From an uncultured beta proteobacterium (GTDB lineage: Bacteria > Pseudomonadota > Gammaproteobacteria > Burkholderiales > Burkholderiaceae_B): a DNA stretch of 37,515 nt. The notes beneath the pieces are model-generated. The model was not told the origin of the DNA and did not search any database. It saw nothing but the letters and a program-made list of their open reading frames with translations. This document shows positions 4,335 to 33,450 of the stretch, in pieces. The stretch's first letter is position 1. Each line of letters opens with the position of its first letter. The translations under genes were made by a program, and so were the position numbers. Where the stretch lies: NCBI GenBank assembly GCA_903894155.1, contig CAITPF010000343.1, positions 1 to 37,515 of the forward strand, given 5' to 3'.

Positions 4335-5279
4335 ATGTTTGCATTTTTCGTTCGTCGACTCGTTTCGTTGCTGCCCACGCTGGTCTTCGTGTCGATGCTT
4401 ATTTTCGGCCTGCAGCAACTGCTTCCGGGCGACCCGGCGCAAATTCTCGCGGGCGAGGACCAGAGCCCTGAATTGATCGCGCATCTGCGGGAAAAGCTCC
4501 ATCTCGATGAGCCTTTGCCCGTACGCTACTTTTACTGGGTGAGCGGGGTGGTGCGCGGCGATCTGGGCGAGTCGGTTCGAACGCAGCAACCTGTCCTTGA
4601 ACTTATCATCCAGAAGCTCCCCGTGACGGCGGAGCTTGCCATTCTTTCCATGCTGATCGGCTTGCTGATCAGCATTCCGGCTGGCGTCATCTCGGCGATA
4701 CGGCCGCGTTCGTTCTGGGACTATTGCGCCACGGCGTTTGCCTTCTCAGGGTTGTCCATTCCGCACTTCTGGCTGGGGATCCTGATGATCCTCCTGTTTT
4801 CCGTCGACCTGGGCTGGTTGCCCGCCTCTGGCTACGTCAGCCCGTTCGAGAATCTGAGGGAAAACCTGGCAGCCATGGCCATGCCGGCCTTTGTGCTGGG
4901 GACAGGAATCTCGGCAGTACTGATGCGCCATACGCGAAGCGCCATGCTCCAGGTGCTGGGCGCGGATTACGTGCGCACCGCGCGTGCCAAGGGCCTGAGC
5001 GAGCGCGTCGTCGTGCTCAAGCACGCGTTGCGCAATGCTTTGACGCCAGTCATTACGCTTGGTGCGCTCGAGTTTGGAACCCTGTTGTCAGGCGCGGTTC
5101 TGACCGAGCAGGTGTTCACGATCCCCGGGTTTGGCAAACTAATCGTCGACGCCGTGTTCAACCGGGATTATGCGGTGGTTCAGGGCGTGGTCCTGGTGAC
5201 CGCGACTGCCTATATCCTGCTGAATCTGATGGCGGACATGGCCTATTTTTTCGCTAACCCGCGCCTTCGACACGCATGA
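4335..5279 (+). CDS. ABC transporter permease, DppB/GsiC type
   Basis: This 314-residue inner-membrane permease starts with the typical MFAFFVRRLVSLLPTLVFVS segment followed by LLPGDPA. Several hydrophobic helices follow, and the cytoplasmic EAA-loop region that contacts the ATPase is visible as ADYVRTARAKGLSERVVVLKH. The C-terminal TIPGFGKLIVDAVFNRDY is a family signature. It lies 30 bases after the binding-protein gene, and its stop overlaps the next gene in ATGA. It should form a heterodimeric channel with the DppC-like protein encoded next. Confidence 0.94.
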   Translation: MFAFFVRRLVSLLPTLVFVSMLIFGLQQLLPGDPAQILAGEDQSPELIAHLREKLHLDEPLPVRYFYWVSGVVRGDLGESVRTQQPVLELIIQKLPVTAELAILSMLIGLLISIPAGVISAIRPRSFWDYCATAFAFSGLSIPHFWLGILMILLFSVDLGWLPASGYVSPFENLRENLAAMAMPAFVLGTGISAVLMRHTRSAMLQVLGADYVRTARAKGLSERVVVLKHALRNALTPVITLGALEFGTLLSGAVLTEQVFTIPGFGKLIVDAVFNRDYAVVQGVVLVTATAYILLNLMADMAYFFANPRLRHA

Positions 5280-6193
5280 CGCACATTCCGTCCCCCGCGG
5301 TGATCACGGCTCACCCGATGTCGCCGACAGACCAAGCGCGGCGAGAGGCGGGCCCCTGGAAGCGCGCTTTTCGCAAACTCATGCGCAATCGCCTGGCGAC
5401 GCTGGGGCTGGCGACGATCCTGTTCTTCATGCTGCTTGCGCTTCTGGCTCCCTGGGTGTCGCCCTATGACCCGCTCGCAACGAACTGGGGCGCGATTCGC
5501 AAGGCGCCGAGCATGGAGCACTGGTTCGGAACCGATGAGCTTGGACGCGACGTGCTGTCGCGCGTGATCTGGGGTACGCGTGCATCGATGCTTGCGGGGG
5601 TAGTGTCGGTTTTCATTTCGCTCGTGGCAGGCGTGACGATCGGCTTGCTTGCCGGGTTCGTGGGCGGCGTGTTTGACGGCGTGATCTCGCGCATCACAGA
5701 CGCTTTTCTTGCGTGTCCTTTCCTGATCCTCGCCATTGCGCTTGCCGCGTTTCTCGGCCCGAACCTGACCAATGCGATGATCGCGATCGGCGTATCGGCG
5801 GCACCGATTTTCGTTCGGCTGACCCGGGCCCAGGTCCTGAACGTCAAAGTGGAGGACTACATCGAGGCGGCGCGCGCCATCGGCTGCCCGCCCTCGAGGA
5901 TCGTGATGTCACATATTCTGCCGAACGTCACCGCTCCGTTGATTGTGCAAACCACCCTGGCGATCGCCGCCGCCGTGATTGCCGAGGCGAGTCTTTCCTT
6001 TCTCGGGCTCGGTCAGCAGCCGCCGGACCCGAGTTGGGGAAGCATGCTGAATACGGCCAAGAATTTCATGGAAGACGCTCCCTGGATGGCAATTTGGCCA
6101 GGGCTCGCCATTTTTGTCCTGGTGCTTGCTTTCAATCTGCTGGGCGACGGCTTACGCGACGCGCTCGATCCGCGTAGCCGCCAGTCGATCTAA
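5276..6193 (+). CDS. ABC transporter permease, DppC/GsiD type
   Basis: The second permease has 305 residues. A cytoplasmic N-terminal tail leads to the first helix (LATLGLATILFFMLLALLAPW), then SPYDPLATNW and the family motif HWFGTDELGRDVLSRVIWGTR. The EAA loop reads VEDYIEAARAIGCPPSRIVMSHILPN. Its ATG overlaps the dppB-like stop (ATGA), indicating coupling. A later ATG at 5317 is possible. No ATP-binding subunit gene follows: the next gene is htpG with its own promoter. The transporter must therefore borrow ATPases encoded elsewhere. Confidence 0.94.
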   Translation: MTHIPSPAVITAHPMSPTDQARREAGPWKRAFRKLMRNRLATLGLATILFFMLLALLAPWVSPYDPLATNWGAIRKAPSMEHWFGTDELGRDVLSRVIWGTRASMLAGVVSVFISLVAGVTIGLLAGFVGGVFDGVISRITDAFLACPFLILAIALAAFLGPNLTNAMIAIGVSAAPIFVRLTRAQVLNVKVEDYIEAARAIGCPPSRIVMSHILPNVTAPLIVQTTLAIAAAVIAEASLSFLGLGQQPPDPSWGSMLNTAKNFMEDAPWMAIWPGLAIFVLVLAFNLLGDGLRDALDPRSRQSI

Positions 6194-12522: not shown

Positions 12523-12596
12523 GCGGGTGTGGTTCAATGGTAGAACGGCGGCTTCCCAAGCCTCAAGCGTGGGTTCGATTCCCATCACCCGCTCCA
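12523..12596 (+). tRNA. tRNA-Gly (anticodon CCC)
   Basis: A 74-nt tRNA with acceptor GCGGGTG/CACCCGC, discriminator T and encoded CCA. The D-arm is GTTC AATGGTA GAAC, the anticodon loop is TTCCCAA and the T-arm is GTGGG TTCGATT CCCAT. The anticodon stem GCGGC/GCCTC contains one C-U mismatch at pair 28-42, which is unusual, although the rest is canonical. Confidence 0.95.
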
Positions 12597-22495: not shown

Positions 22496-22516
22496 GGCAG
22501 CGCTGTGAACGCACAC

Positions 22517-22731
22517 TGCGGGAGAGCGCAATCCGTTGTCAGGATTGCCGCCGAAGGCGCAATTCGCCCAGAATCGCTCAGGCCCCCCATACCGCATGTG
22601 CATTGGCGGCTCGCATTCGTGCGCGCCGCCAGCACAACGCTCTGGAGAGACCCGCGGCCTGAAGGCCAAAACGGGCGCCGAAGGTGCACACCCGGTCGTT
22701 GCCGGGGCAACTCTCAGGCAAAAGGACAGAG
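22517..22731 (+). promoter_or_regulatory. Tandem glycine riboswitch (gcvT leader)
   Basis: Two glycine aptamers lie in the gcvT leader. Aptamer 1 (22517-22596) starts TGCGGGAGAGCGC, contains the core GCCGCCGAAGGCGCAA and GAATCGCTCAGG, and closes with ACCGCA pairing to TGCGG(G). Aptamer 2 (22640-22731) starts CTCTGGAGAG, has GGCGCCGAAGGTGCA and CAACTCTCAGGC, and ends AAAAGGACAGAG, whose CAGAG pairs with CTCTG. Aptamer 2 is fully canonical. Aptamer 1 lacks the usual A-rich AAAAGG segment before its closing strand and has a C-run instead. In this family glycine binding typically turns on glycine-cleavage genes, which fits the operon that follows. From the end of aptamer 2 to the ATG there are 80 bases for the expression platform. 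Confidence 0.95.
22597..22636 (+). other. Long hairpin in the linker between the two glycine aptamers
   Basis: Nested perfect stems fold the whole linker: TGTGC (22597-22601) with GCACA (22632-22636), GGCGGC (22605-22610) with GCCGCC (22625-22630), and CGCA (22612-22615) with TGCG (22620-22623), capped by TTCG. That is 15 base pairs with one internal loop (ATT against A) and one mismatch. It exactly fills the space between aptamer 1 and aptamer 2. Confidence 0.85.
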
Positions 22732-22811
22732 GGGCGGATGGACCGCGATCGCTGGCGCCGCCTTGGGCCCCGCGTGATGCGGTTTGCCGATCACCCCTCG
22801 CGGAGCGTCTG

Positions 22812-31113: not shown

Positions 31114-31803
31114 ATGTCAAAGCACACCAATCCCGCCGGGACGGGGCATCCCGGCATACGGCGCCAGCAAGGCTGGCTTGATCCCGTGATCGCAGAAATC
31201 GACATCGCCTTGCAGGTGCTGGGCGGTGGCGTGACTGCGGGAAGGCCGAATCCTGCCGGTCCCCGCGGCCCCGAGGAGTCCGACCTTGGCGACGACACCC
31301 AGAAGCAGCACGCTGCCGGCCTGATGCGCGTCAACCATGTCGGAGAAATCTGCGCCCAGGCGCTCTATCGTGGCCAGGCCTCGGTGTGCAAGGATCCGCA
31401 AACCGTTGGGTTGCTGCAACACGCGGCACGCGAGGAGGTCGATCATCTCGCCTGGTGTAGCCAGCGGCTGACTGAACTGAGCAGCCGGCCGAGTCTGCTC
31501 AACCCGCTTTGGTACGCGGGGGCTTTCACGCTAGGGATGATCGCCGGCAGGGCAGGTGTCGGGCCGAACCTCGGCTTCATGGCCGAAACTGAACGCCAGG
31601 TGGAGGCGCACCTGGATGATCATCTGCAGCGGCTGCCGCTTGGGGATGATCGGTCGCGTCGGATCGTCGAACAGATGAAGCAGGACGAGATCGGGCATCG
31701 GATCACCGCCGAGACGCACGGCGCTACGCCGATGCCGCTGCCCGTGCGAGGCCTGATGAAGCTGATGTCCAAGGTCATGACGACCACGGCTTACAAGATC
31801 TGA
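31114..31803 (+). CDS. coq7: Ubiquinone biosynthesis hydroxylase Coq7 (di-iron)
   Basis: Coq7 hydroxylates 2-polyprenyl-3-methyl-6-methoxy-1,4-benzoquinol in the last ring hydroxylation of ubiquinone synthesis. The protein has 229 residues. Di-iron ligands are visible: Glu78 in VNHVGEICAQALYRGQA, Glu108 and His111 in EEVDH, a Glu of ETE followed by VEAHLDDH, and Glu192/His195 in DEIGH. An N-terminal extension of about 45 residues is of low complexity. Many betaproteobacteria use Coq7 where enterobacteria use UbiF. A possible -10 (TAGAAT, 31026-31031) precedes it. Confidence 0.95.
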   Translation: MSKHTNPAGTGHPGIRRQQGWLDPVIAEIDIALQVLGGGVTAGRPNPAGPRGPEESDLGDDTQKQHAAGLMRVNHVGEICAQALYRGQASVCKDPQTVGLLQHAAREEVDHLAWCSQRLTELSSRPSLLNPLWYAGAFTLGMIAGRAGVGPNLGFMAETERQVEAHLDDHLQRLPLGDDRSRRIVEQMKQDEIGHRITAETHGATPMPLPVRGLMKLMSKVMTTTAYKI

Positions 31804-31832: not shown

Positions 31833-31884
31833 TCGCACCTTGTAAGGACTGGAAACATTAAAGATCTTGCATTGCACAAAAAAC
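31811..31884. promoter_or_regulatory. Two near-identical TGCAC sites (possible operators)
   Basis: TTGCGATGCACAAAAAC at 31811-31827 and TTGCATTGCACAAAAAAC at 31867-31884 are near-copies 56 bases apart. The second overlaps the -35 box of the promoter for the candidate RNA, so a bound protein could repress it. TGC...GCA sites of this kind resemble those of PhaR/PhbF-type regulators of polyhydroxybutyrate genes in betaproteobacteria, but the match is loose. Confidence 0.4.
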
Positions 31885-31895
31885 TGCTTTAAGAT
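31867..31895 (+). promoter_or_regulatory. Sigma-70-like promoter for the candidate regulatory RNA
   Basis: TTGCAT (31867-31872) and TAAGAT (31890-31895) are separated by an ideal 17 bases. The predicted start is near 31902. The only complete transcription unit it could drive is the non-coding stretch ending in the strong terminator at 32037-32069. Confidence 0.6.
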
Positions 31896-31901
31896 TCTTT
31901 T

Positions 31902-32069
31902 CATGGATGTTTGATTTCGGTTGCGGGTGAGGTAACCCCCCCTGCAAATACCGGTCAGGTGTGGTGAAAGCCCCTGCGGTATCCGGTGATCAGCTTGCCA
32001 AGGTTGTCTCCTCCACCCTCCTCCTTTGGTGGATTTAGCCCAAGACCGTAAGGTCTTGGGCTCTTTTTT
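31902..32069 (+). ncRNA. Candidate small RNA or leader with an anti-Shine-Dalgarno loop
   Basis: About 168 nt from a predicted start to a strong intrinsic terminator, with no plausible open reading frame. Several hairpins can be drawn. TACCG and CAGG (31949-31959) pair with CCTG and CGGTA (31973-31981). TCCACC (32012-32017) pairs with GGTGGA (32028-32033) around the 10-base loop CTCCTCCTTT. The loop contains CCTCCTTT, equal to the 3' anti-Shine-Dalgarno of 16S rRNA, and the flank ACCCTCC (32015-32021) is the exact complement of GGAGGGT at the wbpO ribosome-binding site (32166-32172). It could be a free small RNA acting on mRNAs with strong Shine-Dalgarno sites, or a terminated leader of wbpO. 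I do not recognise it as 6S, 4.5S or a known riboswitch. Confidence 0.6.
32037..32069 (+). terminator. Strong intrinsic terminator
   Basis: An 11-bp perfect stem, AGCCCAAGACC (32037-32047) with GGTCTTGGGCT (32052-32062), has the loop GTAA and is followed by CTTTTTT. It is the clearest intrinsic terminator in the window. It lies more than 230 bases after coq7, hence the case for a separate RNA. Confidence 0.92.
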
Positions 32070-32123
32070 GCCCGTAGTCAACGCAAATTGGGAAACGATT
32101 GCTTAGGAGCCGATTCCGGTCGG

Positions 32124-32129
32124 TACAAT
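32124..32129 (+). promoter_or_regulatory. Possible -10 box of wbpO
   Basis: TACAAT lies 47 bases before the chosen wbpO start. The best upstream hexamer, TTGCTT (32099-32104), is 19 bases away, which is longer than ideal. If it is real, wbpO has its own start downstream of the terminator. Confidence 0.4.
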
Positions 32130-32175
32130 CCCGAGGGCACGGTCGTTCCCAAAGCTTTCCCCGTTGGAGGGTATC

Positions 32176-33450
32176 TTGCAGATTCAGGATGTGAAGCTCG
32201 CAGTTGTTGGTCTTGGCTATGTCGGGTTGCCGCTCGCCGTGGAGTTCGGCAAGAAGCGCCCCGTGATTGGCTTCGATATCAACCGCGCCCGCATCACAGA
32301 GCTCACGGGCGGCCATGATCACACGCTTGAGGTGACGCCCGCCGAGCTTGCCGACGCATCCGGGCTGCGCTTCACCGCCGAGCGCGGGGATTTGCGCGAA
32401 GCGAACGTGTTCATCGTGACTGTCCCGACGCCAATCGACGCGTACAAGCGGCCAGACCTGACCCCGTTGATCAAGGCGAGCGAGACGATCGGCGCGGCGC
32501 TCAAGCGCGGCGACATCGTGATCTACGAATCCACGGTCTATCCCGGCGCCACCGAGGAAGATTGCGTGCCCGTGCTCGAGCGCGTGTCCGGCCTGAAGTT
32601 CAACCAGGATTTCTTCGCGGGCTACAGTCCGGAGCGCATCAACCCGGGCGATAAAGAGCACCGTGTCAGCACGATCCGCAAGGTCACCTCGGGCTCGACC
32701 CCGGCAATCGCCGACCTGGTCGACGAACTTTACCGCCAGATCATCGTGGCCGGCACGCACAAGGCACCCAGCATTCGCGTGGCCGAGGCTGCCAAGGTGA
32801 TCGAGAACACCCAGCGCGATGTCAACATCGCCCTGATCAACGAGCTGGCGCTCATTTTCAACCGCCTGGGCATCGATACCGAAGAAGTCCTGAAAGCGGC
32901 CGGCACGAAGTGGAACTTCCTGCCGTTTCGTCCTGGCCTGGTCGGCGGGCATTGCATCGGCGTCGATCCGTACTACCTCACGCACAAGGCACAATCCATC
33001 GGCTACCACCCCGAGATTATCCTTGCCGGGCGCAGGCTGAACGACGCCATGGGCACCTATGTCGTGTCGCAGCTCATCAAGGCCATGACGCGCCAGGATA
33101 TCCACGTGCAGGGCGCCCGCGCCCTGGTGATGGGGCTGACCTTCAAGGAAAACTGCCCGGATTTGCGCAACACGCGCGTGGTCGACATCGTGTCGGAACT
33201 CAGGGAATACAACGTCGAGGTCGATGTCTACGATCCCTGGGTCGATCCGCAAGAGGCGATGGACGAATACGGCATACGGCCGGTTTCCGAGGTCCACCCG
33301 GGGCAATACGACGCGATCGTGCTCGCGGTGGCGCATGGCGAGTTCGCCCGGATGGGAAGCGCGGCAATCCACGCGCTTGGCAAGCCCCAGCACGTTCTGT
33401 ATGACCTTAAGTACCTGTTCCCCGCCGATCAGACCGATCTGCGCCTCTGA
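32176..33450 (+). CDS. wbpO: UDP-N-acetylhexosamine 6-dehydrogenase (WbpO/TviB type)
   Basis: An NAD-dependent nucleotide-sugar dehydrogenase that oxidises UDP-GalNAc (or UDP-GlcNAc) at C6 to the uronic acid for surface polysaccharide. The protein has 424 residues. The Rossmann motif is GLGYVG (residues 12-17), with [29 protein letters not shown] and the catalytic Cys260 in [14 protein letters not shown]. The C-terminal domain has [17 protein letters not shown] chose the TTG at 32176 because GGAGGG ends four bases before it; the frame is open from another TTG at 32164, which contains this site. The pairing with a WbpP-like epimerase gives the UDP-GalNAcA assignment, rather than UDP-glucose dehydrogenase. 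Confidence 0.9.

Follow-up and report, generated by a model that had tools for sequence, protein, structure and literature searches.

A probable S17-type small RNA gene of the RF02278 family between coq7 and wbpO in an uncultured beta proteobacterium

Organization of the coq7-wbpO intergenic region

In this work, the gap between coq7 and wbpO was analysed within a window of 37,515 nt, that is, the whole stretch of DNA under study. The gap holds a putative promoter, a leader, a short structured RNA and an intrinsic terminator, all on the same strand as both neighbouring genes (Table 1). The gene name wbpO was taken over from a sequence-only reading, which had described here a promoter, about 168 nt free of genes, a 6-bp hairpin with its loop and an 11-bp terminator stem followed by a T-run, and all of these were found again at the same positions. 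The start codon of wbpO is most likely TTG 32176, where the conserved protein of the relatives begins; a longer in-frame start at TTG 32164 also appears in the list of open reading frames.

Table 1. Features of the candidate small RNA gene and its neighbours (positions in the window)
Feature	Position	Strand	Basis
coq7, conserved upstream neighbour	31114..31803	+	Pfam COQ7, E 2.5e-44
Putative promoter: TTGCAT (31867-31872), 17-nt spacer, TAAGAT (31890-31895)	31867..31895	+	Sequence; conserved position across the 31-locus alignment
5' leader; the presumed long precursor runs to 32069 (about 168 nt)	31902..32003	+	Alignment
Predicted mature small RNA, RF02278 / S17S-like	32004..32069	+	Rfam match 32005-32069
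CU-rich 5' end preceding the hairpin; part of S17 'Site 1' (limits approximate)	32004..32011	+	Fold, alignment
6-bp hairpin, 'Site 2', with anti-Shine-Dalgarno loop: stem TCCACC (32012-32017) / GGTGGA (32028-32033), loop CTCCTCCTTT (32018-32027)	32012..32033	+	Folds; 5/6 pairs invariant, n = 20
Intrinsic terminator: 11-bp stem (32037-32062), GTAA loop, CTTTTTT tail	32037..32069	+	Terminator scan; 9/11 pairs changed on both sides, n = 20
wbpO-like UDP-sugar dehydrogenase gene, downstream neighbour, outside the RNA gene	32176..33450	+	Pfam UDPG_MGDP_dh domains

A consensus promoter scan returned no promoter at its threshold, and the putative promoter was called on its conservation across the aligned loci. 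By analogy with the 5'-RACE of S17, a small RNA of Bordetella pertussis, transcription would start about 7 nt past the -10 box. The mature 5' end would be 32004 or 32005, judging from the stated length of the short form S17S (67 nt) and its conserved positions 2-28. In the minimum-energy fold the CU-rich 5' end is unpaired, save for 32010-32011, which belong to a 2-bp helix, and the GTCTCCTCC within it is invariant across 20 aligned sequences. The hairpin loop contains CCTCCTTT, which we take to be the 3' end of 16S rRNA, the anti-Shine-Dalgarno. A search of this assembly for the 16S 3'-end string gave no hit.

The short motifs taken singly are not beyond chance, since the window contains one CCTCCTTT (0.65 expected) and two GGAGGGT (3.2 expected), one of the latter being the reverse complement of the RNA itself. 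The whole element does exceed chance, both in its match to the Rfam family RF02278 (E 1.9e-11) and in its folding. The stretch 32001-32070 folds with a z-score of -5.1, which none of 200 shuffles equalled, and the folding of the 168-nt precursor is weaker (z -2.9; one of 200 shuffles as good).

Family assignment, covariation and synteny with coq7

The predicted mature RNA matches RF02278, 'Betaproteobacteria toxic small RNA', over the full model (positions 1-64 of 64), and the score of 66.6 bits exceeds the cut-off of 50. The architecture of the family is present, with a first hairpin bearing a CU-rich loop and then an intrinsic terminator hairpin. The window RNA is a new RF02278 member with conserved synteny, of a kind already described in relatives. 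Among the characterized members are ncS03, ncS05, ncS27 and ncS62 of Burkholderia cenocepacia, described as 'double-hairpin RNAs' (PMC5688073; PMC4603805; reviewed in PMC10987360), and those of Herbaspirillum (PMC7011215). The two hairpins and the CU-rich unpaired regions are common to the B. cenocepacia RNAs and the window RNA. Unlike the window RNA, three of the four B. cenocepacia RNAs lack a leader and comprise little beyond the two hairpins, and Burkholderia carries three to five copies, whereas one was found in the genome of the window. NmsRA and NmsRB of Neisseria meningitidis likewise carry two anti-Shine-Dalgarno motifs and a terminator hairpin (PMC5362039). The match to NmsRb (RF02877) reached 36.9 bits against a cut-off of 52 and does not support membership of that family; the likeness would lie in the way the RNAs work. 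Three further, weaker Rfam matches also fell below the cut-off.

By comparing the genome of the window with 40 relatives, RF02278 was found at E 0.001 or better in 33 of the 41 genomes and above the cut-off in 28. Within the genus, 22 of 24 genomes have a match, and the two genomes in which none was found are 76% and 89% complete. A match was present in 80 of 120 genomes drawn from the order, in 49 of them above the cut-off, in a search whose filters lose some weak matches; 14 control genomes gave no RF02278 match. Three genomes of the same order (G030, G080 and G143) have 9, 8 and 6 matches at E 0.001 or better, some of them below the cut-off, against the single one in the genome of the window.

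Covariation was evaluated on a set of 20 sequences, from which L026, L027, L030 and many near-identical loci were left out. In the terminator, 9 of 11 pairs changed on both sides. In the first hairpin, 5 of 6 pairs are invariant and one varies on one side, even though the set includes four other families of the order. Of 500 shuffles, which ignore relatedness, none equalled the covariation score of the whole structure, two had as many pairs with changes on both sides, and 91 had as many further pair types. The first hairpin is nearly invariant and the terminator is varied, and therefore the covariation supports the terminator, the first hairpin being supported by folding and the family model. 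Because the first hairpin hardly varies while the terminator covaries, its 3' arm GGUGGA could itself be a binding site. It may be that the hairpin is kept as sequence and not as structure, the arm binding Hfq, another RNA or a sponge, and that the hairpin opens to give one long seed of about 24 nt on preferred targets, but we regard this as unlikely.

Synteny was followed by a Coq7 search over named genome contigs, of which we used the best 80 of at least 580 confirmed stretches, a sample and not a census. The first 30 of these (L031-L060) have Coq7 identities of 59-70% and by title are mostly Alcaligenaceae, with some metagenome bins. All 30 loci carry the core on the coq7 strand, 175-835 nt downstream of the end of the coq7 match, with 26 to 29 of its 29 positions identical. 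As the sequence-only reading had expected for related genomes, the stem and the loop are conserved, the stem being identical in 30 of the 30 loci and the loop in 26. Among the remaining 50 of the best 80 loci, three (L083, L090 and L108) have a weaker ungapped core match about 600 nt downstream, and in the other 47 no core match was found at a threshold of 20/29. In three metagenome bins (L035, L036 and L039; core at 4876, 1123 and 2734, respectively) the loop-final CTTT is replaced by AATA or TATA, so that the 16S-like octamer is lost and CTCCTC is kept. In Pigmentiphaga humi (L058), two copies of the RNA follow coq7 (at 5490 and 5922), about 430 nt apart and with different terminators.

When the window and the 30 loci are aligned, the -35 region (CTTGC...GCA) and the -10 box are conserved, and a promoter-like pair was reported in 31 of 31 loci, the pick in L050 being misplaced. 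The -10 box is followed by a short GGATG/GGAAG stretch at the presumed start, a variable leader, the fixed core and the terminator. Beyond the first 15 nt or so, both the length and the sequence of the leader vary among relatives. The presumed transcript start itself (31903-31909 and the matching site in L031-L060) is conserved as GGATGTCGAAACG in many relatives and GGAAGTTAAGT in others, unlike the remaining leader. The variable leader and the fixed core fit a view in which the function resides in the processed RNA.

Comparison with S17 and proposed mode of action

In B. pertussis, S17 is flanked by coq7 and a glycosyltransferase gene and is transcribed from a promoter TTGCAT-17-TACTAT as a 190-nt form, which is cut by RNase E to a stable 67-nt form (Sim et al., preprint PMC11722255). 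The same RNA is called CT_433 in a RIL-seq paper, in which four of 11 conserved S17 targets were found (PMC12235514). The coq7 neighbour, the TTGCAT -35 box with a 17-nt spacer, a leader and an intrinsic terminator are common to S17 and the window RNA, and so is a conserved block of 27 nt in the 5' part of S17S, which would correspond to TGTCTCCTCCACCCTCCTCCTTTGGTG here. By sequence, a promoter of the S17 type, TTGCAT-17 nt-TAnnnT, stands ahead of the leader. On the other hand, the far-side neighbour is BP3151 in B. pertussis and wbpO in the window, and the presumed precursor is shorter in the window (about 168 vs 190 nt). The authors of the S17 study themselves compare S17 with RF02278 (PMC11722255). 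The window RNA is very probably the ortholog of S17 (CT_433), a judgement based on the description in that preprint and on loci labelled as Bordetella, and not on the B. pertussis sequence itself. The full-length RF02278 match, together with a promoter type and a neighbourhood as described for S17, supports the proposal, first made from sequence, of a trans-acting small RNA that displays an anti-Shine-Dalgarno in its loop.

We hypothesize that the locus is a free-standing gene for a trans-acting small RNA, an S17 ortholog and RF02278 member, and we consider this model highly likely. The sequences themselves show the family, the anatomy, the conservation, the synteny, the independence from wbpO and the presence of hfq; transcription, processing, Hfq binding and repression are carried over from the relatives, and so, more tentatively, is the target set. 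Transcription from a housekeeping promoter would stop at the gene's own terminator and yield the precursor of about 168 nt, which RNase E would then trim to a stable form of some 66 nt bound by Hfq. With its anti-Shine-Dalgarno loop and its CU-rich 5' end, this form would cover the ribosome-binding sites of many mRNAs and thereby repress their translation. The region of the RNase E cut is conserved in sequence across the 31-locus alignment; the cut context of S17 is GU/GU (PMC11722255), which has no exact placement on the window. The level of S17 falls without hfq (PMC11722255), and an hfq gene is present in the genome of the window. The S17 targets of B. pertussis include many transport-related genes, and sigma-54 activators are the one target class proved by compensatory mutation, via Site 1 (PMC11722255). 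Sigma-54 activators gave nine matches in the genome of the window, and the strongest six were compared with Site 1 and Site 2 for complementarity. No 8-nt match to either site was found near the first start in these six, whose start codons are uncertain; one of the six has a 7-nt match at the ribosome-binding site, and the frame of another runs off the fetched stretch. A search of the genome for TGGAGGAGACA, the 11-nt complement of the 5' end, returned no site beyond the RNA gene itself.

The S17 locus, with coq7, the promoter, a variable leader and a fixed RF02278 core, is maintained far outside Bordetella, the titles of such loci including Sheuella, Zwartia, Castellaniella, Achromobacter and Alcaligenes. 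Since it is retained so widely, this suggests that the basic role of the locus is not tied to virulence control.

Alternative roles and other features of the window

The RNA could instead mimic the 16S 3' end broadly and act as a general translation brake with no chosen mRNAs, which would account for the word 'toxic' in the family name, and its loop presumably equals the anti-Shine-Dalgarno. Members of the family also slow growth when overexpressed (PMC5688073; PMC4603805). However, overexpression of S17S in E. coli BL21 left exponential growth unimpaired, and in the S17 deletion strain 91 genes rose, 70 of them with a match (PMC11722255). Furthermore, the repression of BP2158 by S17 was disrupted by base changes in Site 1 and restored by compensatory mutations, and two of five target candidates tested were without effect (PMC11722255). 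These results argue for chosen targets, and we find a general brake quite improbable.

A short peptide encoded by the precursor, as suggested for S17, would make the RNA dual in function. The S17 precursor has a putative frame of 32 aa, with the processed 5' end falling inside it (PMC11722255). A frame ending in ...VVSSTLLLWWI-stop also crosses the core in the window, where a GTG start would give 25 aa, and an ATG near the presumed transcript start recurs in relatives, often as MSKRD or MEVK. Nevertheless, in contrast to S17, no ATG was found in the core frame of the window, in which GTG is the sole start. Among the 31 loci, 13 have an upstream ATG in the core frame and nine have one past the presumed start (10 when the misplaced start of L050 is corrected), and in 14 the core frame opens only 61 nt or less from the core. 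The frames opened by the recurrent 5' ATG vary in length and do not keep a constant phase to the core; in the window they comprise 3 and 7 codons. A conserved leader ORF was rejected on this variation in start, length and phase, and a coding role is thus highly improbable.

The sequence-only reading had also offered an attenuator-type leader acting in cis on wbpO-wbpP, with a conditional terminator and a CU-rich segment that pairs with the wbpO ribosome-binding site. It is true that wbpO follows the RNA immediately and in the same orientation, and that ACCCTCC (32015-32021) is complementary to GGAGGGT at that site (32166-32172). The genus was represented by 23 loci including the window (L001-L022 and L024), of which L011, L012 and L020 end too early to show the downstream gene. 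Among the 20 informative loci, the window counted, wbpO is directly downstream in 16. In the other four (L002, L003, L010 and L022), however, the RNA lies beside a convergent pgi with no wbpO between, and in the more distant loci wbpO is 0.6-1.6 kb off or outside the fetched stretch. The core and the terminator are intact in all four pgi loci, which also keep promoter-like pairs, TTGCAT-17-TATGAT in L022 and TTGCGC with a -10 box matching at 4/6 positions in L002, L003 and L010; the Coq7 of L022 is the closest of these to that of the window (86%). No leader can act on a gene transcribed towards it, and the retention of the RNA in the pgi loci therefore contradicts this reading. The complementarity stands in the window, where ACCCTCC is half buried (ACC in the stem, CTCC in the loop), but among 34 wbpO upstream regions (matches above 70% identity over at least 150 residues and starting at residue 1, with some genomes entered twice from two collections) its pairing site occurs in that of the window alone, and the pairing was rejected as a conserved feature. 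Moreover, the terminator stays intact in the minimum-energy fold of 32001-32070 as well as in that of 31902-32069. The attenuator was rejected and has next to no probability left. Thus, the RNA would be a separate gene for which a leader role for wbpO is very unlikely, and it is set apart from the adjoining polysaccharide gene, a natural but apparently wrong target.

Elsewhere in the window, a tandem glycine riboswitch at 22509-22739 (RF00504 matched twice, with 50.7 and 57 bits) precedes long plus-strand frames, which resemble a glycine-cleavage operon in size and order alone. Two tRNA genes were found at 12523-12593 on the plus strand and at 1581-1662 on the minus strand.
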